Assembly: GCA_947649495.1 (NCBI GenBank)
Contig: CANSRU010000015.1
Location: forward strand, 1-58,970
Direction of reading: 5' to 3'
Source of the DNA: an uncultured Porphyromonadaceae bacterium
Lineage (GTDB): Bacteria > Bacteroidota > Bacteroidia > Bacteroidales > Muribaculaceae
DNA: 58,970 nt
Shown here in pieces: positions 2,896 to 14,314 of this stretch (its first letter is position 1; each line of letters begins with the position of its first letter). The position numbers and the translations under genes were made by a program. The notes under the pieces were generated by a model. It was not told the DNA's origin, did no database searches, and worked only from the letters and a program-made list of their open reading frames with translations.

Positions 2896-3324
2896 CTATA
2901 GCCATACGGGGCGCAGGGAGGGGATGGCTGCAGGGGTGTGGAGCAGGCGGCGCAGCGATGCGGTGTCGGTTTCGGCGGCTTCGGCAAATGTGTGGCTCAG
3001 GTCGGTGTCAATGCCTGCGTATGCCTCGGCGAGGATGTGCGATGAAATGATGTGTTCCATGAGCAGGCGTGTGGCCACAGGCTCGACGCCGTCGGGTAGC
3101 TCTACGGTGAGCATGTCTGAGCCTTCATTGTCTATATTGCAGTCTGTGGCAAACGGGAGCATGGACATGCAGAGCACGGCAAAGGCGCTGCGTGCCATCA
3201 GGAGCAGGGCCGGCCGGCGGTCGGGAGTGAGCAGCGGAGGTCTGTTGCCGTCGAGGTGATGGCGCAAGGCTGTCTGGGCGTAGAGCTGTGCTGTGATGTC
3301 GTCGATGGAAATTGAGATAATCAT
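2896..3324 (-). CDS. Unknown protein, last gene of the capsid cassette
   Basis: 142 aa, not recognised. It is acidic and probably helical, starting MIISISIDDITAQLYAQ, with no signal peptide or transmembrane segment. It begins 28 bases after the preceding unknown gene on the same strand, so it is probably co-transcribed with the portal- and capsid-like genes. Its place and size would suit a small head-completion or adaptor protein, but that rests on context alone. Confidence 0.6.
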   Translation of the reverse strand: MIISISIDDITAQLYAQTALRHHLDGNRPPLLTPDRRPALLLMARSAFAVLCMSMLPFATDCNIDNEGSDMLTVELPDGVEPVATRLLMEHIISSHILAEAYAGIDTDLSHTFAEAAETDTASLRRLLHTPAAIPSLRPVWL

Positions 3325-3352
3325 GGCTGTCGGTAATAAAAGATGTGGATGG

Positions 3353-3751
3353 TCAGGATGATTTGAGTGAATGGTAAAGGCGCAGGGCGGTGGAGGGCGC
3401 CAGGAAGAAACTTGATGCGTGGCCGTCGGTCAGTATGCGCATCAAGGCCTGGCGGTCGGTGAGATAGCGGCGCCGGGAGCGCAGGCGGTCCACACGGTCT
3501 ATAAGCTCGCGCCACATGGCTCCTGACGGACGTCCGGTGCCGGGCAACCGTCCGTGGCGACGGTAGCGGCTCAGCGTGCGGATGGCGTGGATGGGCGATA
3601 CGTAGTAGCATGGGGCGGGCATGGAGGCTGCGTCGGCTGCTATGGAGGCCGTGGTGATCTGCCCGCTCGCACGACACCGCGCTTTACGGCATGCTTCCAT
3701 AAAGTGGATGTCGCGCAGGCGGGTAAGAACGTTGTAGGTGTGTCGGTTCAT
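3353..3751 (-). CDS. Unknown basic protein of the capsid cassette
   Basis: 132 aa, not recognised. It is rich in arginine (for example RSRRRYL and SRYRRHGRL) and so possibly nucleic-acid binding. It follows the portal-like gene after an 84-base gap containing a hairpin, and precedes the 142-aa gene. No HTH or enzyme motif is clear. A role in DNA binding or head assembly is only a guess from charge and neighbours. Confidence 0.6.
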   Translation of the reverse strand: MNRHTYNVLTRLRDIHFMEACRKARCRASGQITTASIAADAASMPAPCYYVSPIHAIRTLSRYRRHGRLPGTGRPSGAMWRELIDRVDRLRSRRRYLTDRQALMRILTDGHASSFFLAPSTALRLYHSLKSS

Positions 3752-3792
3752 AGTACTGTAGATATTACTTTGTTTCGTTGGTAAAATTACAA

Positions 3793-3822
3793 CGCGTCAT
3801 GGGCAATAACCCATGATGCGCG
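3793..3822 (-). terminator. Hairpin between the portal-like gene and the next gene
   Basis: TCATGGG (3797-3803) pairs with CCCATGA (3810-3816), with flanking CGCG on both sides. On the minus strand it is followed by a T-rich stretch (TTGTAATTTT). It may be a weak terminator or attenuator lowering expression of the last two cassette genes. Confidence 0.4.
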
Positions 3823-3835
3823 ATGTTAAAGAGAG

Positions 3836-5212
3836 TTAACAGGTGACTATTATCCGGTTGCGTTGCATGCGGAATGCATTGAAGCTCTCGATCAGGTCGA
3901 GTATGGCGGTGGCGGAGTTGCGCACCTGAGCGTCGTAGAGCGCGGCCGATGTGTTTGGGTTGGCCACACGTCCCTGCAGGGCGGCGTTCACGCCCGAAAT
4001 CTGGTCGAAGAGCTGCATCTGGAGGTTGAGAAGCTGATAGGCTCCGGCATTCTCGCCGTTGGCGAAAAATTGTTTCGGTTCGCGTCCACCCTTGCCCGAG
4101 AACGGTATGATGGCCTGCGGGCGTGCCCACACGCGGCTCAGTTCCTCCCATGTCATGCCGGCAGCGAGGCCATCCTCGGGAAACACAAGAGCCCCCTTGG
4201 CCGATACACCCATAATATGGTCGATGAGTGTGATTATGCGGTTTATGTGGCGCTGCTGAGGCAGCACATCCTCCACAAACGAGTGTACCTCGCCATCGGT
4301 CAGCGGGAAGAATTTCACGGCAAACGGGTGCATGCCGTGGAAGTAGGGCGAGTCGTATTCGTCGAGCACCTCACCGTTGGGGGCGAGAAAGCGGCAGTGC
4401 CAGCGCATGGTGGTGCGCTGCAGTATGTTCAAGGGCGTCTGGCGGTCGGGGACATCGTTGGCGTGGTTCAGGCGGGGGTGCTGTGAGGCGGGAAGCACGA
4501 AGAAGCTGGCGCTCTCGGGGTCGTGGCACTTTACTATGTTACGGCTTTCGAGCGTCCACACCTCTATCACCCGGCACCGTCCGCGCGGGGCGTTGAAAAA
4601 ATCCGATTCGGCATCAATGCCGTGGGCGGCTGTGGCCGACGATGCAATGTCGTCGTAGATGCGCGATATTTCGAAGGCCTTGGCCGGTGAATTCGGGGCG
4701 AAGCGCATCAGCACCTCGCGCAGGCTCATGGAGTGGAGCATGCCTATAAGCTCTATGTCCAGACCTCGCGGGTCGGTAAAGCGGTTGACAAAGAAATGGT
4801 CGGGGCTCACATTGTCCACCCACACACCGGCGCCCGCCATGCGTTTCTCGGCCACCACACGCTGTATGGCGCACCCCGATATCAGGAATTCCTCAAGCAT
4901 GCGGCAATCGAGTTCGGTGAGCGCGTTGCGGGTGGCCACCTCGGGCGGCACCGGGCACGACGATGCGGGATCGTCGTCGGCCACCATGGTGCGGAAATTG
5001 CCTATCACGCACTTCACGAGCTGCCGGAGCATATTGTTGGTGAGCGGATGTTTGCCCGATTCTATGGCGTAAGCCTTCTCGGTGTCTATGGTGCCGTCGT
5101 CCTTCACCACAAGGTCGTCCCATTGGCGTCCGTAGGTGTAACGTTTGTAGCGGTTGCGCCGCTCGCGCATGTCGGCGCCTGCATTCCAGGCTTCGAGTGC
5201 AAGATTGAGCAT
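3836..5212 (-). CDS. Phage portal-like protein
   Basis: 458 aa. The N-terminus (ALEAWNAGADMRERRNRYKRYTYGRQW) and the stretch near residue 330 (PQQRHINRIITLIDHIMGVSAKG) resemble portal proteins of P22-like and crAss-like phages, where a conserved helical region precedes an 'SAKG' strand. Portals form the dodecameric ring at one capsid vertex through which DNA passes. The protein is shorter than many of those portals (often about 700 aa) and ends soon after the 'SAALYDAQVRNSATAILDL' helix, so the C-terminal barrel is absent or reduced. It starts 7 bases after the stop of the preceding gene, suggesting translational coupling. The assignment rests on motif memory, not a search. Confidence 0.65.
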   Translation of the reverse strand: MLNLALEAWNAGADMRERRNRYKRYTYGRQWDDLVVKDDGTIDTEKAYAIESGKHPLTNNMLRQLVKCVIGNFRTMVADDDPASSCPVPPEVATRNALTELDCRMLEEFLISGCAIQRVVAEKRMAGAGVWVDNVSPDHFFVNRFTDPRGLDIELIGMLHSMSLREVLMRFAPNSPAKAFEISRIYDDIASSATAAHGIDAESDFFNAPRGRCRVIEVWTLESRNIVKCHDPESASFFVLPASQHPRLNHANDVPDRQTPLNILQRTTMRWHCRFLAPNGEVLDEYDSPYFHGMHPFAVKFFPLTDGEVHSFVEDVLPQQRHINRIITLIDHIMGVSAKGALVFPEDGLAAGMTWEELSRVWARPQAIIPFSGKGGREPKQFFANGENAGAYQLLNLQMQLFDQISGVNAALQGRVANPNTSAALYDAQVRNSATAILDLIESFNAFRMQRNRIIVTC

Positions 5213-5219
5213 AGATGTG

Positions 5220-5786
5220 TCAGTTTTTCGGGTCGTTGAATATTTCAGTTTCCATCAGTCGGGCCATGAGCCATGGTGTGAGGTTGAGAGTATCGCTGTC
5301 GGCCGGCAGCATAACGGCAAGCAGCTCCGTGAGTTCAAGAGAGCCGGGCGGCGGGGTGTAGAGCATGAGCCGCGTGCCGCTTACCACCCCCACCGGCTCG
5401 GCGGCAGCGCCCCGCGCGAATGGCGATTGCTGGGCCATGGCACGCACCGAATGCGGATCGGTTTCGATGGTGGCGGCCCGTAGCCATCCCTTCATCGTGG
5501 CCGACACCACACGCATACATCCCCCGGGGAGCTCCACCACGGCCGCTCCGTCATCGCCGCGGCTCACAGTTACCTCTCCTGCTATGTCGGTGAGCGGAAG
5601 CATGTCGGCAGGTGCTGTGGCGAGCAGCTCCGCATGGCGCACGCGCAACCGGCAGGCTATGGTGGCGTCGATGTCGAGACCGTAGGTGCAGTTCACCGTG
5701 GCGGCAGGCTGTGCCGGAGCCAGACAGCGGGCGAGTTTCCACTCGTCCACCATCCGGCTGAGGCTAAGGCTGAATGAGCCTGTCAT
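5220..5786 (-). CDS. Unknown protein between the capsid- and portal-like genes
   Basis: 188 aa, not recognised. Its start codon overlaps the stop of the capsid-like gene by four bases (ATGA), and its stop lies 7 bases before the portal-like start, so the three are translationally coupled. The sequence looks beta-rich, with no signal peptide. In phage head modules this position is often held by a head-tail connector or decoration protein; that is inference only. Confidence 0.65.
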   Translation of the reverse strand: MTGSFSLSLSRMVDEWKLARCLAPAQPAATVNCTYGLDIDATIACRLRVRHAELLATAPADMLPLTDIAGEVTVSRGDDGAAVVELPGGCMRVVSATMKGWLRAATIETDPHSVRAMAQQSPFARGAAAEPVGVVSGTRLMLYTPPPGSLELTELLAVMLPADSDTLNLTPWLMARLMETEIFNDPKN

Positions 5787-7066
5787 TGGCCTATCACTCT
5801 GAAGTGGGACTTGGGGTGACGGAGCACCAGACAGCTCGCTTCAGTGGCCACAAGGGCATCGGTGTTGCGCTGGCCCGATTTCTTTAGGTCGAGATGGTCC
5901 ACCTTGAAGGGTATGTGCGTGTACTTCGACATGTATTGCGGGTCTAACACCATACCGTCTGACTCGTGGCCGCACTGGTCGAACACCTCGCTGTGGACCA
6001 CATAGAGCGTGCCGAACTTCGAGCGCAGTTCGTTGAAGTCTATGCCCCAGCGGGTCACAGTGTCGTCGGCGGCTATCACCTTGGTATACGACAGTTTGTT
6101 GAGAGCCTCTATCAAGGCGCTTCCGGCTATGAGTATCTTGCGGGGCGAGCCGGCGGCCTCGCCGGTGAACACACGCCGCATAAGCTCTATCACATTTTCC
6201 TGACGCAGTTCGTCGACAGTGAGCGCGACCTCGTTGGCTGCCTGGTTCCAGATACCTTCGGTGAAGAGCACTTCATCGTATTTGGCCGGATCGGTGAACC
6301 GCATCTTGATTCCGAAAAGGAAGTTCTTCTCCATGCCCATGCGCATGTCCATTATGGCCACCTCCTCCTGGTCGGAGAATGTCCATCCCACCTCCTTGGC
6401 ATTGAGCTTGGCCTGCAGCGACTGTTCCACCTGCGCTTTGAATATCTGGCAGTAGTTCTGGGCTTTCACCGGCAGCGCCTCAAATTGCGGGGTCTGCACG
6501 TCGAGCTCGCTGGCGGCGCGCCCCATGCGCACCACTCTCAGTCCCTGCGTTATGGCGGCGGTTTCGGTGGCGGTGATGTTGTCGGCATCGGTGTTGACCA
6601 CCTTCACCGAATGTTCGGTGAGGTCGGGCTGCTCCACCACGTAGAACACTCGGGTGCGCACCATCCCTTTCTTGTCCTTCGGCGTGTTGATGCGCGGTAT
6701 CATCAGGGTGTCGGTTGCCGAGAATATCGCGGCGTTCTTCAGAAACAGTTTGAGAATCGGCTTGTCGTCGTAGCTCATGTCGGCGAGCAGTTCAGCCGGT
6801 TTGGCGGTTGTGGTCATGCCCGGCTTGGTGTCGACGGAGTAATAATCTACAATCATCGATGAGGCCTTGCGTGAACCCACCATTCGCGAAATCTGGTCGA
6901 CAGGAGTCGACATCGGGCGCACCTTGACTATGCGGCGGTCAATCTCGTTGAGCAGAAGCGATGGCGAGCCTTCGCGTATGGCAGCGGTGGTGAGGGGCCC
7001 GTCGGTCACGTGGCGGTTGTCGTTGTCGGTGGTTACTAACGATGTGGTGTTTGTGTTTTGTTCCAT
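5783..7066 (-). CDS. Major capsid protein-like (SU10/DUF5309-type)
   Basis: 427 aa. The order of features fits HK97-fold capsid proteins of the SU10 (former DUF5309) family: an N-terminal arm (about 1-70), a segment with VDYYSVDTKPG, a central region with DQEEVAIMDMRMGMEKNFLFG (about 235-260), a domain with RKILIAGSALIEALN, and the closing CLVLRHPKSHFRVIGQ. Such proteins build icosahedral phage heads. Neighbours support this: an acidic scaffold-like gene precedes it and a portal-like gene follows. No stop or frameshift interrupts it. An encapsulin-like shell is the alternative, but encapsulins do not travel with portals. Confidence 0.68.
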   Translation of the reverse strand: MEQNTNTTSLVTTDNDNRHVTDGPLTTAAIREGSPSLLLNEIDRRIVKVRPMSTPVDQISRMVGSRKASSMIVDYYSVDTKPGMTTTAKPAELLADMSYDDKPILKLFLKNAAIFSATDTLMIPRINTPKDKKGMVRTRVFYVVEQPDLTEHSVKVVNTDADNITATETAAITQGLRVVRMGRAASELDVQTPQFEALPVKAQNYCQIFKAQVEQSLQAKLNAKEVGWTFSDQEEVAIMDMRMGMEKNFLFGIKMRFTDPAKYDEVLFTEGIWNQAANEVALTVDELRQENVIELMRRVFTGEAAGSPRKILIAGSALIEALNKLSYTKVIAADDTVTRWGIDFNELRSKFGTLYVVHSEVFDQCGHESDGMVLDPQYMSKYTHIPFKVDHLDLKKSGQRNTDALVATEASCLVLRHPKSHFRVIGQ

Positions 7067-7104
7067 GTTGATTTGGTTGAGTAAGTTAAAGGTTTTTGTT
7101 CAGG

Positions 7105-7437
7105 TCAGTCCCATACGCCGGGTCGCATTCTTGACAGGAAAGTGTTGGCCAGGTCGTCGGGTTGCGCAGGCTGTTCTGTGGCCTGAGGGTGTGCATGCCG
7201 GCGCAGGTTTTCCCAAAGTGCGGGTTGCTGCATGTTCTCGGCTATCACCTCGTTGCGTCCGCGCAGGTAGCCCCGCTGTTCGGCTTCCGCTATCAGCGCG
7301 TCGATATCTATGCCGGGGTCTGAGGTGGGAATCGCCTCGTCGGTTCCGGCGGTAGCGTCGCATTCGGGCGTAGTGTCGCCCACGGCGGGTTCAATGGGTT
7401 CCACGGGAGTGGGGATGGGTGTGCTCTCTTCGTTCAT
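7105..7437 (-). CDS. Small acidic protein, scaffold-like, first gene of the capsid cassette
   Basis: 110 aa from the ATG at 7437. An upstream in-frame start at 7512 is ruled out because a good -7 box lies at 7468-7475. The protein is acidic and proline-rich at first (NEESTPIPTPVEPIEP), then forms a likely helix (DIDALIAEAEQRGYLRGRNEVIAENM), and ends with a short conserved-looking tail (FLSRMRPGVWD). Size, composition and position just before a capsid gene resemble phage scaffolding proteins, which are discarded after head assembly. The function is inferred from this, not recognised by family. Confidence 0.65.
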   Translation of the reverse strand: MNEESTPIPTPVEPIEPAVGDTTPECDATAGTDEAIPTSDPGIDIDALIAEAEQRGYLRGRNEVIAENMQQPALWENLRRHAHPQATEQPAQPDDLANTFLSRMRPGVWD

Positions 7438-7467: not shown

Positions 7468-7475
7468 CAAAGTTA
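7468..7475 (-). promoter_or_regulatory. -7 box of the capsid cassette
   Basis: TAACTTTG on the minus strand, a strong match to TAnnTTTG, 31 bases before the ATG at 7437. It is divergent from the birA promoter about 60 bases away. Confidence 0.65.
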
Positions 7476-7563: not shown

Positions 7564-8316
7564 ATGGATAATGTGGGTGTAATACGCTTGGAATCAACGG
7601 ATTCAACAAACTCATATATGGCGGCACATGCCGCGGGGCTCTCTCACGGCACAATGGTGACGGTCAGGGAGCAGAGCGCCGGACGCGGACAGCGTGGCAA
7701 TTCGTGGGAATCGGAGCCGGGCATGAATGTCACAATGTCGATGTTGCTGTTGCCCGACGGCCTGCAGGCTGTAAGGCAGTTTCTGATATCGGAGGCGGTG
7801 GCTGTCGGCGTGGCCGATACGTTGCGGCACTATCTCGGCGATAATGCCGGTGTGAGTGTCAAGTGGCCTAACGATATCTATGTGGGCGATAGGAAAATAT
7901 GCGGTATTTTGATAGAAAATGTGCTGACAGGTCGTGGAATAACCCGCAGTATTGCAGGTGTGGGGCTGAATGTGAACCAACGGCGGTTCTGTTCCGATGC
8001 TCCCAATCCGGTGTCGATGTTTCAGCTCACAGGCTGTGAGGCCGATGTAGATGAGGTGGCTGTCAGGCTACGTGAAAATATATTGCGGCGGTATGATGAG
8101 GGGATTGTAGCGGGTATGGCCGATGAATTGCACACCTTATATAAAAGGGGGCTGTGGCGCCGCGACGGTATGAACCGCTATGCCGATGCTGCCACCGGCC
8201 GTGTGTTTGAGGCAGAGATAAAGGATGTGGCTCTCACAGGGCATATCACGCTGCGGGAGCCAGATGGCACGGAGACCACCTACGCATTCAAGGAGGTGGC
8301 CGCCGTGATGGAATGA
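7564..8316 (+). CDS. birA: Biotin--[biotin carboxyl-carrier protein] ligase
   Basis: 250 aa. It activates biotin with ATP and attaches it to the carrier subunits of biotin-dependent carboxylases in the cytoplasm. The biotin/ATP-binding loop GRGQRG is at 40-45, KWPNDI at 100-105, the catalytic-region lysine at 111 (RKICGIL), and GVGLNVNQ follows. There is no N-terminal HTH, so this is the short, non-regulatory form usual in Bacteroidetes. The start is chosen by the promoter position. It is transcribed divergently from the capsid cassette and converges with the creatininase-family gene, leaving only 6 bases between stops. Confidence 0.93.
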   Translation: MDNVGVIRLESTDSTNSYMAAHAAGLSHGTMVTVREQSAGRGQRGNSWESEPGMNVTMSMLLLPDGLQAVRQFLISEAVAVGVADTLRHYLGDNAGVSVKWPNDIYVGDRKICGILIENVLTGRGITRSIAGVGLNVNQRRFCSDAPNPVSMFQLTGCEADVDEVAVRLRENILRRYDEGIVAGMADELHTLYKRGLWRRDGMNRYADAATGRVFEAEIKDVALTGHITLREPDGTETTYAFKEVAAVME

Positions 8317-8322
8317 GTGATA

Positions 8323-9093
8323 TTATTCAGGGATTGGGAGGTACAGCTCAGGTTCGCACAGGTCGTGAATCAGGTCGGCATAGTCTGAGGCTATGTCGGC
8401 GGCAAAGCGCGCTCCTTTCTCGGCCGTGGCTGCTGCCGGTGAGCCAATACCGGTGTCGTGGCTCACGCGGTCCCAGCGTCGGGGTAGCCATGCCATGCCA
8501 CGGTGCAGTGTGTCGGCCTTGAATCCGCCGGCCTTTCCATCGCCGGCTTCGGCAAGATTGACCAGCTCGGGGTGGTAGTGCATCATTACCGATGTCTCGA
8601 GCTCGTCGGCATGGTCGCCCGGATGGTCGAAATATTCCTTTGCCGGGCGCACTTTGAACCATTCGCTTGTGGCTATTAGCATATCGGGCATATCCACGGC
8701 AAGGTCGCGTATCATGTTCTTGAAGCAGTTGCCGCCATGGCCGTTGATGATAAGCAGCCGGTCTATCCCCTGGCTGTGGAGCGACGATGCTATGTCGGCA
8801 AGCACGGCGCGTTGGGTTTCATAGCGTGAATGCACACAGAATTTCAGCTGGCGTTGTCCGGGATTCTGCGAGCCGAGTGTCACAGGGGGCATCACCATTG
8901 CATTGATTCCATAGCGCTCGTGGGCTATAATGGCGGCGTCCACGGCTATGTCATGGCTCAGTATGGCATCGGTGAGATAGGGGAGATGCAGATTGTGGGG
9001 TTCGGTCGCTCCCCACGGAAGCAATGCTATGCGGTAGTCAATGTGGCGCGTGGTGCCGTAGTTGCTTATGCTGAGGTCAAAAAGTTTGGTCAT
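8323..9093 (-). CDS. Creatininase-family amidohydrolase
   Basis: 256 aa, the last gene of the sialic-acid operon. The family hydrolyses cyclic or linear amides with a two-metal site. Ligand motifs are present: E31-P-H33...D42 (GATEPHNLHLPYLTD), NGHGGN near residue 118, and a Glu in ADELETS. The usual 'GSxEQHGPHLP' is altered to 'GATEPHNLHLP'. Members act on creatinine, pterin or formamidopyrimidine substrates, so the substrate cannot be read from sequence. It starts 13 bases after the fusion gene's stop, so it is probably in the same transcript. A role on a sialic-acid-derived amide is an inference from context. Confidence 0.8.
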   Translation of the reverse strand: MTKLFDLSISNYGTTRHIDYRIALLPWGATEPHNLHLPYLTDAILSHDIAVDAAIIAHERYGINAMVMPPVTLGSQNPGQRQLKFCVHSRYETQRAVLADIASSLHSQGIDRLLIINGHGGNCFKNMIRDLAVDMPDMLIATSEWFKVRPAKEYFDHPGDHADELETSVMMHYHPELVNLAEAGDGKAGGFKADTLHRGMAWLPRRWDRVSHDTGIGSPAAATAEKGARFAADIASDYADLIHDLCEPELYLPIPE

Positions 9094-9106
9094 ATTCCGG
9101 TTCGTT

Positions 9107-12100
9107 TTACAGGTCGGTGACGTGAAGTGTCTGCGAAGTGCGTATGCGGGGCTTCAGTTCGCCGCCGGTCAGGTAGATGTCGCGGTTGTTTCCTGCCACC
9201 ATGGCGGCTCCGGCGCGTGCGGCGTCGGGTGTGCCGGCAGCAATGTGCCATTGCATGGTGGACGGGTCAAAAATAAAGATGTCGGGGTTGAAGCGGTACC
9301 ATTCCACCGGATGCATCAGATAGTCGGGAGCCTGGTTGCGCAGGGCTCCGAGAAACACATCCTTGTTGACCCCTCCGGCCACGGCTATGCGTCCGTCGCT
9401 GAGGGTGCAAGCCGCACCGCCACCGGTGGCCACGGCATTGCCGGAGCTGTCGGCGGGGCCGGGGATGTGCTCCCATTTGTCGCCTGCCGGCGAGTAGCGC
9501 AGGCCGTCAAGCTCAAGGGTGGGTTCCTTGCCGTCGTGCCGCGGAGCGAATCCGCCCCACAGATAAAGGCATTTCTCGCCCGATGGAGCTACGCCTGTAG
9601 CCATTACAGGCTGCACCCGGGGATTGCCGGGCATACGTTTGAGTTTTTTCCATTCCGGAGCCGGAGCCTCGGTGTCGAGCATCCACAGTGAGGTCGACGG
9701 ACGGCCATCGGCGTTGCCTCCGGCCACATATACCTTGCCGCCTATTGCCGCGGCAGCGAAATTGTCGAGCGCTACGGGCAGTTCCGGCAGGGGCGAGAGT
9801 GTCACGTTGTCACCCTCAAGGTGCATGAGTGTAACGGTAGGAAGTGATTGTGTGTCGGTGGTGCCTCCAATCAGCACTATCCCTTTGGCGACGGTGGCGG
9901 TGGCGCCGTAGGCCATCCCCTCGGGAAGCGAACCTATTCGTCGCCACTCCATGGTGGCGGTGTCGGCGGCATAGATGCCTTTGTAGTATTTTTTCCGGCT
10001 GTCAGGAGCCATGGGGTCGGTGGGGAAGTTGCACCCTCCGGCCATTATGATACGTGGGCCGTCGGTCGTGGCGTATGGAGCCGACACGCCGTGTTCAAGC
10101 CCCGGTTCCATGTCGTAATCGGAAGCATTGTCCACTTCTATCTTGAATGTCGATGCCGGGAGACCGTCGCTGTTTACAAGGTTGGCTCTTGTGAATGGTT
10201 GCCAGCCATAGCGTACGAGTCGAGGTTTGCTTATATCCATGTTGTAGATTTTTATTTTATTGTCGTCGGTTATTTCGGCCGTGGCAGTGCGGTAAAAACC
10301 GTCTGTTCCGGCTATCTCGAAAGTGCGGAGAGGAAGCCCGTCGCTGCTTCTGAGCCCATCTCCATTGGCCATGGTGAGGACTATGGCGCCGCCTTTTGCT
10401 ATGGCTGCTTCCGGTTGCGGACCGGAGGGAGTTACATGCCGGTAGCCGTATGTGTGGTTGAGGGCCTGACGCGCGAGGCGTTGGCCCACCTCGCGTTTGT
10501 GTGTGGGATGCACGTCGAGCGAGTCGCCGAGGTCGGAGGTCACAGCCATCCCCACCCCATCCATCTCCTTGGCCAGGCGCCGCTGGCTGTCGCGGAACGC
10601 AGGCCACGACGGGCGGTCTATGCTGCTTAGCTGCGCGAAATATACAGGCATCTGCTGATTGCGGAAATATCGGCGCCAACTGTCGGCAAGCATTGGGAAT
10701 AGTCGTTCATGGATGTCTGTGTTGTGGGCATTGCTCTCACCCTGATACCATATCATGCCGGCTATATCCGGGCTCCCGAGCGGGCGTACTCCCGATGCGA
10801 ATAGATAAGATGGCTCGTAGGGGTGGCGTGCCGACTTGTCTCCGCCGAGATTTTTCAATGCTCGTTCCTGCGCCCATTTCTGTATATAGTCGTTGCCGGT
10901 CCAGTCAAGAAGAATCTCGGGCATCCCCTCCTCAAGGGTGTTTACATCGATCCAAGCCTCGCACGGAGCTCCACCCACAGCGTTGCATATCACCCCCACA
11001 GGCACATTGAGGCTGTCGCGCAGTTGCCGGGCGAAGTGATAGGCCACGGCTGAGAAGTCAGGGGCATTGCTGCTGTCGATGCTCTCCCATCGCGCGGGGG
11101 CGAAGTGCTGCAGCCGGTTCATTTTGTCAAGGATGGAATCGGGCCATACCACATCGTAGGTGCGTGCTATCGGCCGCATGTTGAAAATGCGCAGCATGGT
11201 GTCGGCACATGTCTCGATTACCTTCGCTCCATCGTGGCTCATCGATAGCGGAAACTCCATGTTGCTTTGTCCCGATGCCACCCACACCTCTCCGGCTGCG
11301 ATATCGGTGAGCGTGATGGTGTCGGTATTGTCGGTGACAGAGAGTGTGTAGACCTTGCCGCTCACAAGCGGAGCTGTGGTCACAGCCCACCGGCCACGGT
11401 TGTCGGCCTTGGTGCGGTATGTGTGGCGGTCGAGTGTCAGTGTCACGGCACTGCCTGCATCGGCGCTGCCCTCTATATGCAGCGGGCGGTTGCGCTGGAG
11501 CACCATGCCGCTTTGATAGACGGGGGGCAGGCGGAGCCCTCCGTATCGGCCTGTTATACCGCTGAAGGCTGTACGAGCCAGCAGTTCCGAGCCTTCGGCA
11601 TCGGGGTGTATGCCGTCGTGAAGCAGATTCTGGCGGTCGCGCAATGGCGTGTCAAAGTCTATAAGCTCCACATTTTTCGCCTGTGCCACTCGCTTTATGG
11701 CTTCCTGGATTTCCAATCGCCACAGCCGGGTGCCCGACTTGAATCTGTAGTGGGTGGCACGCAGCGGGGTCAATAGAGCCACGATTATACGTACCTCGGG
11801 ATTGACGGCGCGTAGCGAATCGATAAGGGCTGAATAATCGCGCTCGAACTCGTCGCCATGCAGCGGCCAGTTGCGCGGATCGGTGTCGTTGACGCCGAGA
11901 TGCACCACCGCTACATCGGGCTTGAAGGCAAGTGCCTTTCGGAATTCCTCCGATGTAAGGTAGGGATTGTGGCCTTTGCGCAGAAGCGTGGCGCCAGAGC
12001 GTCCGAAGTTGCCCACCTCGTAGTCTTTGCCGAGCATATCCTGCAACCGCGATGGATAACTTTGCTTGCCCGGGTCGGGGAGTGTCAGTCCGTAGGTTAT

Positions 12101-12196
12101 GCTGTTGCCTATGCAGGCAATCTTGGTTTTAGGATATGCCGCGATGGCGCATAGCGCCACCGCCGGCACGACTATCAGCCGCAGAAATCGGTTCAT
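9107..12196 (-). CDS. Triple fusion: SGNH hydrolase, sialate O-acetylesterase, NanM-like mutarotase
   Basis: 1029 aa with a signal peptide (1-21), so periplasmic or exported. Domain 1 (about 25-215) is an SGNH/GDSL esterase: GNSIT with Ser32, GxND at 101-104, and D194/H197 in DGIHPD. Domain 2 (about 220-690) is a SASA-type sialate O-acetylesterase: GQSNM with Ser311, WYQGESN at 483-489, and DVHP...H around 561-566. Domain 3 (about 700-1029) is a Kelch-type propeller of the cyclically permuted mutarotase family (NanM-like), with repeats such as IIMAGG, IVLIGG and VYVAGG. Together it would remove O-acetyl groups and equilibrate sialic-acid anomers before uptake. Its start overlaps the stop of the epimerase gene by four bases. 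Confidence 0.88.
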   Translation of the reverse strand: MNRFLRLIVVPAVALCAIAAYPKTKIACIGNSITYGLTLPDPGKQSYPSRLQDMLGKDYEVGNFGRSGATLLRKGHNPYLTSEEFRKALAFKPDVAVVHLGVNDTDPRNWPLHGDEFERDYSALIDSLRAVNPEVRIIVALLTPLRATHYRFKSGTRLWRLEIQEAIKRVAQAKNVELIDFDTPLRDRQNLLHDGIHPDAEGSELLARTAFSGITGRYGGLRLPPVYQSGMVLQRNRPLHIEGSADAGSAVTLTLDRHTYRTKADNRGRWAVTTAPLVSGKVYTLSVTDNTDTITLTDIAAGEVWVASGQSNMEFPLSMSHDGAKVIETCADTMLRIFNMRPIARTYDVVWPDSILDKMNRLQHFAPARWESIDSSNAPDFSAVAYHFARQLRDSLNVPVGVICNAVGGAPCEAWIDVNTLEEGMPEILLDWTGNDYIQKWAQERALKNLGGDKSARHPYEPSYLFASGVRPLGSPDIAGMIWYQGESNAHNTDIHERLFPMLADSWRRYFRNQQMPVYFAQLSSIDRPSWPAFRDSQRRLAKEMDGVGMAVTSDLGDSLDVHPTHKREVGQRLARQALNHTYGYRHVTPSGPQPEAAIAKGGAIVLTMANGDGLRSSDGLPLRTFEIAGTDGFYRTATAEITDDNKIKIYNMDISKPRLVRYGWQPFTRANLVNSDGLPASTFKIEVDNASDYDMEPGLEHGVSAPYATTDGPRIIMAGGCNFPTDPMAPDSRKKYYKGIYAADTATMEWRRIGSLPEGMAYGATATVAKGIVLIGGTTDTQSLPTVTLMHLEGDNVTLSPLPELPVALDNFAAAAIGGKVYVAGGNADGRPSTSLWMLDTEAPAPEWKKLKRMPGNPRVQPVMATGVAPSGEKCLYLWGGFAPRHDGKEPTLELDGLRYSPAGDKWEHIPGPADSSGNAVATGGGAACTLSDGRIAVAGGVNKDVFLGALRNQAPDYLMHPVEWYRFNPDIFIFDPSTMQWHIAAGTPDAARAGAAMVAGNNRDIYLTGGELKPRIRTSQTLHVTDL

Positions 12197-13389
12197 TGCA
12201 TTTTTGCAGCTATCTCGTCAATAATCATTGAGCTTTTTATGAGCATGCGCGGAATGTGGAACGGACCTTTGAACAGATTGCCCTTGGCAGGTTGAGCCAC
12301 AGTGCCGTCGCGGTGCAGGTATCCGAACCATTCGCCGTAGGCGGGGTCCGGCAGGTGCTCGTACATCCACTCGTTGGCCATGCGGTGCATGCGCATGTAG
12401 CGTATGTCACCGGTGGCTTCGTAGGCATAGAGCGATGCAATCACAGCCTCGGTCTGCGGCCACCAGAATTTCATGTCCTGCGAATAATCCTGTGCCGGGA
12501 AACCTTTGCAGTCGCGGAAGTTGATTATGCCACCATACTCGTTGTCCCATCCCCACTCCCAGCTCCAGTCGAGAATCTGGAGTGCTGTCTGGGTCAGTGA
12601 CTTTTCCCATCCGCGGTATTTGGCCTCCTCAAGAAGAAACCACGCCGTCTCGATGCAGTGTCCGGGATTTATAACACGTCCGGCCATTGTGTCTATCAGC
12701 TCACCTTCGGGAGTCACCATCTCGAGAAGAGCCTTGTATTCGGGATGGATAAAATAGGTGGTTATGTCGTGGAGTGATTGTTCTATCTGTTCGTCAAGAG
12801 CCGGATGTGCTATGGCCTGACGTATGCGCGAGGCGGTGTTGATGAGTATCATCGTTATCGAGTGGCCGCGTGCGGGCTGCGTCGGCAGATACTTCGGCTC
12901 GAGAATGCCGGGAGTGTTTATGAAGCGCTGTATGTCAAGGAAGAGTTTCAGCGCCTTTTCGGCATAAGCCTTGTCGCCTGTCGCTATGGAATATTCACTC
13001 ATGGCTATGGCTGCGAAGCATTCCGAGAACACGTAGCGGCGTTTTCTGAGTGGTGTGCCGTCGGCTTTCACCTCGAAATACATTCTGCCGTCGGTGTCGA
13101 AACAATGTTTCTCAATAAAATCGAGACAGCTGCGTGCCATGTCGAGATATTCGGGGCGCTGCTCGATGTTGTTGTAGGCAAACGAGTAGACGAATGCGCA
13201 TCGTCCCTGAAACCACACCGACTTGGTGCCGTCCATCAGTCGGCCTGTGCGGTCAACGCAGGTGTACACACCGCCATTCTCGCGGTCGAGTCCATGTTCA
13301 AGCCAGAAAGGAAGTATATCCTTGGTCAGGTCATCACGGTAGCGTTTCTGCCAGTGTTGCAGATAGTCGCGGAGATTGGTGTTGTCCAT
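12193..13389 (-). CDS. nanE: AGE-type N-acylglucosamine 2-epimerase
   Basis: 398 aa from the ATG at 13389, one base after the nanA stop; an upstream in-frame ATG at 13413 would overlap nanA. The protein is an (alpha/alpha)6-barrel epimerase of the AGE/RnbA family, seen in GGVYTCVDRTG, VWFQGRCAFVYS, NPGHCIETAW and KFWWPQTEA. In Bacteroides the equivalent enzyme converts ManNAc released by the lyase to GlcNAc, which a ROK kinase (not in this window) then phosphorylates. This differs from the ManNAc-6-P route of enterobacteria. It lies between nanA and the esterase/mutarotase fusion in one operon. The symbol follows Bacteroides usage. Confidence 0.9.
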   Translation of the reverse strand: MDNTNLRDYLQHWQKRYRDDLTKDILPFWLEHGLDRENGGVYTCVDRTGRLMDGTKSVWFQGRCAFVYSFAYNNIEQRPEYLDMARSCLDFIEKHCFDTDGRMYFEVKADGTPLRKRRYVFSECFAAIAMSEYSIATGDKAYAEKALKLFLDIQRFINTPGILEPKYLPTQPARGHSITMILINTASRIRQAIAHPALDEQIEQSLHDITTYFIHPEYKALLEMVTPEGELIDTMAGRVINPGHCIETAWFLLEEAKYRGWEKSLTQTALQILDWSWEWGWDNEYGGIINFRDCKGFPAQDYSQDMKFWWPQTEAVIASLYAYEATGDIRYMRMHRMANEWMYEHLPDPAYGEWFGYLHRDGTVAQPAKGNLFKGPFHIPRMLIKSSMIIDEIAAKMQ

Positions 13390-13390
13390 G

Positions 13391-14314
13391 TCAGAATCTG
13401 TTACAGCGTTCAAAGAATCCTATTGCCTCAAGTTCAGCCTTCAGTGCGGCCTCCTCCTCGGGAGTGATGTTTTGGAATGGGGTGCGGTTGGGGCCGAGGT
13501 CAAGGCCTATCAGCTTCATTATCCTTTTGCCGCCTACTATGTTGCCGCGGAAACGGCATATCACGTTTATAACCTCCTGCGCGAAGTTCTGATGCTCGCG
13601 GGCCGCATCGAGATCACCGCGGTTCCACGCGTCGATTATGGCTGTCAGCTCGCGTCCGTTGTAGTTTGTGGTGCCGCCTATGCCGCCTTGGGCGCCACCC
13701 ATGGCCAGCGAGGGGAGTATGGTCTCGTCCTGACCGTGGAGCATGTCAAACTTCCCTCCGCCATACAGACGGCACTGGTTGTATTCGTATATGCTCTCAA
13801 ACGTATATTTGATACCTGCGAAGTTAGGCACACGTCCGTCCACAGCTTCCAGAAGTTTGACCATGGGCAGATATGCGCCGTTGAATGCCGGTATGTGATA
13901 GTAGTAGAAGGGGAGTTCCGGAGCTCCGGCTGCTATCTCCTCGATATATTTCACCAGCTCCTCCACACGGTTGATTTTCGGGAATGGAGGCGCCATGGCT
14001 CCTATGCCCCATGCTCCGGTTTCGGCCGCATGGCGCGCAAGCTCGCGGCTTGAGCGCGCGCAGCAGCTTCCCACATGGACTATCACCTTGAATCCTTCAG
14101 GAGCGGCTTTCACCCATGCTTCGGTCAATCTCTTGCGCTCGTCGTCGGTCAGCATGTAGCCTTCGCCCGACGAGCCGTTGATGAACACACCCTTGAGGCC
14201 GTTCTTATGAAGCATCGCCGCGTATGCAGGTATCGGTTCTATGTTTATATCCCCATTTGGCATAAATGGAGTGAACGGGGCATCTATAAGCCCGGTGATT
14301 TTCTCGAATGTCAT
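13391..14314 (-). CDS. nanA: N-acetylneuraminate lyase
   Basis: 307 aa, the usual length. It is a class I aldolase splitting Neu5Ac into ManNAc and pyruvate in the cytoplasm. The carboxylate-binding GSSGEG is at 48-52, Tyr139 sits in YYYHIP, and the Schiff-base lysine is K169 in GIKYT. It is called nanL in Bacteroides fragilis. It lies 39 bases after the MFS transporter gene and one base before the epimerase gene, the classic Bacteroidales NanT-lyase-epimerase set in a different order. Confidence 0.95.
   Translation of the reverse strand: MTFEKITGLIDAPFTPFMPNGDINIEPIPAYAAMLHKNGLKGVFINGSSGEGYMLTDDERKRLTEAWVKAAPEGFKVIVHVGSCCARSSRELARHAAETGAWGIGAMAPPFPKINRVEELVKYIEEIAAGAPELPFYYYHIPAFNGAYLPMVKLLEAVDGRVPNFAGIKYTFESIYEYNQCRLYGGGKFDMLHGQDETILPSLAMGGAQGGIGGTTNYNGRELTAIIDAWNRGDLDAAREHQNFAQEVINVICRFRGNIVGGKRIMKLIGLDLGPNRTPFQNITPEEEAALKAELEAIGFFERCNRF

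Follow-up and report, generated by a model that had tools for sequence, protein, structure and literature searches.

A probable gene-transfer-agent-like system of podovirus origin in the Muribaculaceae, read from its genes

The window, that is, the whole stretch of DNA analyzed here, comprises 58,970 nucleotides (contig CANSRU010000015.1, designated C15) of the 2.45-Mb genome (G000; GenBank assembly GCA_947649495.1) of an uncultured member of the Muribaculaceae (hereafter the family), and the system in question is a six-gene capsid-portal cassette on its minus strand (positions 2896 to 7437). With a probability of about 0.7, a short-tailed phage was domesticated and kept as a gene-transfer-agent (GTA)-like system, and this cassette is its shell locus. 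The genes make the system GTA-like and do not prove membership, and it is best read as an old, mainly vertically inherited, multi-locus system of podovirus origin. GTAs are described, in the available part of one source, as multi-locus sets of structural and packaging genes (PMC11841831). Here, phage-derived head, packaging, and tail-connector genes lie in the host chromosome, with those for the capsid, portal, and adaptor in the window and those for the large terminase (TerL) and a nozzle-like protein on another contig, C14. The terminase has its active-site residues in all 29 domesticated-side sequences, and no integration, repression, or replication gene was found among the 12 flanking genes, six at each locus, that were searched with Pfam, a scan that did not extend to small or farther neighbors. 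Inheritance appears to be vertical and under purifying selection, with some gene-tree conflict.

Shell cassette and motor locus

The cassette consists of six intact open reading frames with zero internal stops and with host genes on both sides. A preliminary description of the window, made from the letters alone, had recorded six tightly packed minus-strand genes, free of stops and coupled by ATGA, and all of this was confirmed, the overlap of 4 bases lying between the capsid gene and the gene after it. The products that it had called capsid-like and portal-like belong to real viral families. The major capsid protein (5783-7066, minus strand, like the other five genes; 427 aa) is of the SU10/DUF5309 type and matches Pfam SU10_MCP (E = 3e-51), phrog_26635 (9.5e-80), and, by profile, the major capsid protein of PDB 9in6 (3.9e-11). 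The portal protein (3836-5212; 458 aa) is of the P22 type, matching Pfam P22_portal (8.4e-22) and phrog_156 (1.5e-40). Amino acid identities with the Bacteroides phages BF1-TP2, BKO1-TP3, and BS-TP4 are 36% for the capsid and 34% to 36% for the portal, and the closest phage-like capsid among viral contigs (48%) is that of IMG/VR UViG_2681813420 (L041).

The portal had also been described as C-terminally short, and it is, since its best matching stretches stop at profile positions 437 of 594 (Pfam) and 454 of 681 (phrog); alignment with phage portals shows that about 170 C-terminal residues of the phage homologues are missing. On the domesticated side, 113 of 124 portal frames are 416 to 532 aa long, 8 being shorter (cut by the locus end or split) and 3 longer, and 14 of 15 frames from phages or other families measure 644 to 714 aa. 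The first gene encodes an acidic protein of 110 aa (7105-7437, from the ATG at 7437) that precedes the capsid in relatives and phages, and its position and acidity suggest a scaffold; scaffold frames span 72 to 192 aa in the family versus 246 to 283 aa in six phages. Both the portal and the scaffold frame counts include duplicates, some genomes having been reached by two routes. The shortened portal and scaffold would fit a smaller head, and the particle head is therefore probably small.

The third gene (5220-5786; 188 aa) had been listed as a coupled unknown; the coupling stands, and the predicted fold of the product is that of a head-tail adaptor (ring) protein. Its AlphaFold2 model (pLDDT 93.4) has as its five best Foldseek matches in PDB virion proteins of phicrAss001 and SU10 (E = 5.7e-4 to 7e-3; TM 0.41 to 0.48). 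The two matches at E <= 0.001 are phicrAss001 tail-barrel ring proteins (5.7e-4 and 6.4e-4; TM 0.47 to 0.48), and an SU10 tail protein follows at 4.6e-3. The adaptor gene comes after the capsid gene in phages as well. Given the predicted adaptor fold of the 188-aa protein, the design probably includes a short tail.

The 132-aa protein (3353-3751; phrog_27246, 5.9e-5) is a candidate small terminase, judged by position. In three loci (L041, L046, and L047), a homologue immediately precedes the large terminase gene; in three others (L042, L043, and L048), it is likewise upstream but separated from the terminase gene by one gene, another small-terminase candidate; and in genome G045, it is immediately downstream. 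The last gene, kept after it, encodes a helical 142-aa protein of unassigned role (2896-3324), whose AlphaFold2 model (pLDDT 91.8) has a podovirus protein as its best viral fold match (TM 0.74; E = 7.3e-3), with no viral match at E <= 0.001 and no significant PDB match in Foldseek; it is probably a virion or packaging accessory. A resemblance to a similarly placed L041 protein gave no BLASTP alignment and was dropped. The scaffold, 188-aa, and 142-aa proteins had no useful match in the Pfam and PHROG family searches, and in PDB sequence searches the nozzle-like and 132-aa profiles found no match and the adaptor and 142-aa profiles found chance-level ones.

The preliminary description had noted the lack of a terminase, which is correct for the scanned flanks and wrong for the genome as a whole. 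The search for a matching terminase that it proposed, performed with a query (A1) built from the large terminases of two Bacteroides phages and L041, matched the genome once, at C14:54971-56596 (E = 5e-178), on another contig than the cassette. The gene (L044:11782-13662; 626 aa) matches the phrog_2 terminase large subunit (9.8e-21). A1 matched 58 of 101 genomes, 55 of which belong to the family; among the 61 family genomes, 55 thus have a terminase by any match and 51 one of the domesticated type. Pfam Terminase_6N (PF03237) matched just 6 of the 101 genomes and found no terminase in the window genome; this miss shows that the rest of the genome should be searched with phage-derived profiles before a capsid cassette is taken for an 'orphan'. 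The ATPase and nuclease columns (R153, Q154, G156, S158, T159, E255, D460, E521, D621, and D622 in L041 numbering) do not vary across all 29 domesticated-side and all 14 phage terminases compared; this set excludes the duplicates L229, L230, L232, and L145, the partial sequence L146, and any frame no longer than 550 aa. A simple motif expression was misleading on terminases, and alignment columns were used instead. The terminase of the window genome likewise has its catalytic residues.

Directly before the terminase gene lies a long gene (longest frame, 935 aa). Members of its nozzle-like family directly adjoin the terminase in 10 of 15 family terminase loci (L029, L044, and L051 to L063), and a phage member comes after the adaptor in L151. 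Phage members match phrog_32516 (4e-228, 5e-124, and 8e-147) and, weakly, virion or tail families. By position and these profile matches, the conserved protein of about 800 aa beside the terminase is probably a tail nozzle. The pair is flanked on one side by secDF, a phosphotransferase-family gene, and a gene without a match, and on the other by genes for methionyl-tRNA synthetase, asparaginase, and a sigma-54 activator.

Distribution, inheritance, and surroundings

Of the 297 family genomes, 255, from 29 of the 30 genera, had a capsid match, as a rule in a single copy; 239 matches were at E <= 1e-60, and 16 were weak (E = 1e-20 to 1e-4), 15 of the latter in genus g70. The portal was matched in 54 of the 61 family genomes and in 3 of 40 genomes from other families of the order. 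Genus labels and weak matches, like the entries of the 61-genome table, were taken by eye from the search output. Capsid and domesticated-type terminase go together: of these 61 genomes, 47 carry both, 5 the capsid only, 4 the terminase only, and 5 neither (Fisher p = 0.004), and for the 37 genomes at least 90% complete the counts are 31, 2, 1, and 3 (p = 0.005). The two terminase matches of G026 are of the prophage type and were not counted as domesticated. The genus of the window genome (g1) includes Paramuribaculum intestinale DSM 100749, which carries the six-gene cassette (on its contig L076) and a full-length terminase of 638 aa (L167:462-2378); a stretch (L176) of another g1 genome, G006, is contained in contig L076 of this strain.

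Gene arrangement was examined in the best 80 of 337 relative-encoding stretches (394 pattern stretches in the profile scan of genome contigs), and neighbors were counted at 63 of the 80 loci, 2 having no called capsid frame and 15 too little flank. Gene order drifts, since the portal is near the capsid in 49 of the 63 loci (34 downstream and 15 upstream), the scaffold in 33, and the adaptor in 30. Capsid and portal are on different contigs in G055 and G056. All eight genes form one cluster of about 10.5 kb in G054; seven are together in G165, of the same genus, where the scaffold was not detected, and seven in IMG/VR contig L144, which ends before the 142-aa gene. In G045, the 132- and 142-aa genes accompany the nozzle and terminase genes, and the scaffold-capsid-adaptor-portal group is at another place. 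The biotin ligase gene adjoins the cassette on its scaffold side in the window and in L022 (same genus) and on its portal side in L028 (another genus), and it lies about 7 kb away in L059 (a third genus). Four of the 14 viral-contig matches in IMG/VR (L144, L145, L146, and L147) are short domesticated-cluster contigs filed as viruses; virus databases may misfile such loci. In L147, the capsid-portal pair is present as two copies inverted relative to each other, which may be an artifact of assembly.

At dS < 1.5, the median dN/dS was 0.17 for the capsid (205 pairs), 0.12 for the portal (161 pairs), and 0.145 for the terminase (3 pairs), the pairs being nonindependent and including some genomes that were sampled twice by different routes. 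Purifying selection acts on capsid and portal and, judging by a few pairs, on the terminase, and the earlier view of a maintained rather than decaying locus holds for most of the family. Trees were compared for 28 genomes, with portals of 21 and with the capsid frame of G005, the terminase frame of G006, and the rpoB of G042 absent from the set. Splits shared with the rpoB tree numbered 4 of 22 for the capsid, 5 of 22 for the terminase, and 4 of 17 for the portal (20 to 25 shared genomes), compared with 0.2 to 0.3 after label shuffling (p <= 6e-4 each), and quartet agreement was 0.56 to 0.66. Distances correlated with those of rpoB for the terminase (r = 0.48, p = 1e-4) and the portal (r = 0.43, p = 0.003). 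In a capsid tree without G005 and G104, which have no capsid row, six of the nine genera with at least two members (g3, g6, g13, g17, g22, and g23) were monophyletic, and g1 had one intruder. Inheritance is thus mainly vertical, with some exchange or lost signal.

Two genomes from two other families of the order, G081 and G087, carry the capsid (about 1e-179), a full-length portal, and the terminase, scattered over three contigs in G081 and spaced 15 to 45 kb apart in G087. The family of G087 (one genus in this set) has the capsid in eight of eight genomes. The G081 and G087 capsids form one group within the capsid tree, close to g17, g23, and g25, and L041 falls among them. Given this set of genes, the full-length portals, and the place of the capsids in the tree, the system probably predates the Muribaculaceae, and the portal was probably shortened later or within the family. 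In L050 (G081; 8088-13997), the terminase adjoins an ejection-like protein and an 864-aa protein, and this branch may have retained a larger set of virion genes.

Genuine prophages of the same phage lineage are present in the family as well (G026:C75, G035:C3, and G001:C1; loci L045, L047, and L048); their portal and terminase are full-length, they encode very long proteins, and the bacterial genomes that contain them also carry a domesticated capsid. Searches for the phage ejection protein and Phage_lysozyme (PF00959) covered 37 family genomes and 24 others. Within the 37, the ejection marker occurred only in the five genomes with a prophage-type portal or terminase. Phage_lysozyme was found in 10 of the 61 genomes searched, 8 of them among the 37, and beside the cassette only in G024 and G025, downstream on the same strand.

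Upstream of the cassette, about 30 bases before the first ATG, stands a putative host-type promoter box, TAACTTTG (7468-7475, minus strand). Boxes of the TANNTTTG type, the putative Bacteroidota -7 box, are enriched in the window (47 sites versus 19.5 expected). The six flanking genes scanned at the shell locus look host-like (biotin ligase, creatininase, a chitobiase-domain protein, a GDSL/SASA/NANM fusion, GlcNAc 2-epimerase, and a DHDPS-family gene), and none is a terminase, integrase, or repressor; the sole phage-labeled matches came from the GDSL portion of the fusion, which weakly matched tail-fiber and head-decoration families. Beside the cassette (8323-14314), the creatininase-family gene, the 1,029-aa GDSL/SASA/NANM (Kelch) fusion, the GlcNAc 2-epimerase gene, and the DHDPS-family gene form an apparent sialic-acid-type group. 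On the 3' side lie two copies (2388-2477 and 2750-2840) of an element of about 90 bp with inverted-repeat ends, which has 52 matches in the window genome (4 at >=98%, many arrayed on contig C30) and none in 20 other genomes searched.

Proposed mechanism and rival explanations

If the GTA-like reading is right, host promoters would switch on the shell and motor loci in a few cells, and scaffold and capsid would assemble into a small head that encloses the shortened portal. With no phage genome left to select, the terminase, possibly using the 132-aa protein for its small subunit, would load the head with host DNA; adaptor and nozzle would close it as a stubby tail; and the particles would exit by lysis and deliver their DNA to kin. 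That nearly the whole family seems to have kept these genes suggests that its members make virus-like particles that package their own DNA.

Several observations weigh against this reading. The nozzle assignment depends on position and weak profile matches, the nozzle-like gene of the window genome matching phrog_32516, a family of unknown function, at just 0.004. Phage_lysozyme was not found in the window genome, other lysin families not having been searched for; nor were receptor-binding genes or the ejection marker, tail fibers lying outside the search. G081 (family f22) keeps an ejection-type protein. The adaptor is not beside the capsid in 33 of 63 loci with room for it. Parts are missing from some near-complete genomes: the terminase in G038, the portal in G044 and G051, all but the terminase in G019, and capsid, portal, and terminase in G058. 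Copies with in-frame stops or splits affect the portal (G012 and G055), capsid (G046, G200, and G312), and terminase (G024). The capsid distance correlation with rpoB is weak (r = 0.21, p = 0.046; within the family, p = 0.06), that of the portal falls to r = 0.29 (p = 0.06) within the family, and g4 and g14 are not monophyletic; because of this nonmonophyly and the weak correlation, some horizontal movement or lost signal is likely.

The broken, split, or missing members (G012, G055, G019, and G058) and the gene-tree conflict are also what independent prophage remnants would leave, decaying slowly and repeatedly reacquired. This is improbable, given median dN/dS values of 0.12 to 0.17, the presence of usually a single copy per genome across 29 of the 30 genera, congruent trees, and intact terminase active sites, and among the neighbors scanned the head genes were not found in the company of integrase, repressor, and ejection genes, as they would be in a temperate prophage. 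A domesticated weapon or lysis device of the PBSX kind, whose particles kill relatives or release cell contents without selection for gene transfer, would be expected to have an identical gene set. It is unlikely: PBSX-type killers have long contractile tails, whereas just an adaptor and a nozzle-like gene are kept here, and no killing or immunity gene was recognized beside either locus among the neighbors scanned, which are not all of them. In favor of such a device, PBSX packages about 13 kb of random host DNA without transferring it, according to the available part of one report (PMC7667829).

The preliminary description had offered a gene-transfer-like particle, a satellite, and a protein shell among its options; the first is favored, and the other two are much weaker because of the near-core, mainly vertical conservation and the packaging motor. 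A capsid-forming phage satellite, dependent on a helper phage for tails and spread, would account for a partial phage module, and true prophages of the same lineage do exist in the family (G001, G026, and G035). It is nevertheless very unlikely, since the system is near-core and not patchy as PICI-like islands are, shows genus-level monophyly, has its own terminase and adaptor, and is spread over two or three loci; there was no integrase in the scanned flanks (attachment repeats were not searched for), and the helper (ejection) marker was not found in the window genome. Equally unlikely is a nucleic-acid-free or cargo-specific protein compartment that uses the capsid as encapsulins do. No terminase adjoins the cassette, and capsid and portal are apart in several genomes (G055 and G056), as such a shell would allow, but a sealed shell needs neither the portal nor the active-site-intact terminase that are co-conserved with the capsid, and the adaptor fold also speaks against it.

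A wider proposal, to which we give an even chance, is that a GTA older than the Muribaculaceae, present in two further families, was miniaturized and mostly split into shell and motor loci in the Muribaculaceae and may be a main route of gene exchange in these dominant rodent-gut bacteria. Few lineages are known to have GTAs. If real, a near-core GTA in so abundant a family of the gut would make gut gene flow directly testable and be a possible source of mouse-gut virus-particle DNA whose transducing agent is unidentified; as given in part of one study, mouse-gut virus particles yielded 46 contigs with a generalized-transduction or GTA-like pattern (PMC7667829).

Comparison with known systems

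As far as searched, a GTA-like system in the Muribaculaceae is undescribed: no description was found in the literature searched, with preprints and most subscription papers outside its scope. The available text of a GTA review holds no word beginning with Bacteroid, and DUF5309 as a literature term returned one irrelevant paper.

Among phages, BKO1-TP3 (PQ571269), BF1-TP2 (PQ571263), and BS-TP4 (PQ571277) have the homologous capsid (36%) and portal (34% to 36%) noted above; the two examined have TerL, the adaptor, and a 132-aa homologue, and BKO1-TP3 has the nozzle-like protein. They differ in being complete phages of 64 to 68 kb, the two examined having an integrase, a repressor, ejection-like and giant proteins, and full-length portal and scaffold. 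L041 resembles the system in its capsid, TerL, 132-aa homologue, scaffold, and adaptor but differs in having a lysozyme-like gene and long genes that look by eye like tail or fiber genes; a portal was not found in its 27.5-kb record. The tail ring or adaptor proteins of phicrAss001 and SU10 (PDB 7qoj and 7z47) share the fold of the 188-aa protein at about 10% identity (TM 0.45 to 0.48) and are parts of virions.

Alphaproteobacterial GTAs are of siphovirus-like ancestry, as opposed to the SU10/crAss-like podovirus ancestry seen here. In the portion of the source available, RcGTA and other GTAs of that class are, like the present system, vertically kept, multi-locus sets of structural and packaging genes without replication genes, and their transfer of DNA was shown, whereas the Muribaculaceae system is known from genes (PMC11841831).

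The nearest analogue is FpGTA I and II of Faecalibacterium (PMC12946183), the main text of whose paper, as available, has no word beginning with Muribacul. The likeness is one of description, without sequence comparison, and the host belongs to another phylum. FpGTA is arranged in two separate operons, and its particles and packaged DNA of about 9 kb were shown. In the Muribaculaceae, by comparison, TerL lies apart from the shell in most genomes examined, no lysis/tail-fiber operon was found, and the portal is shortened relative to phage relatives. Both systems are found in gut bacteria, and both place podovirus-like scaffold, capsid, portal, TerL, and candidate small terminase genes in host genomes.

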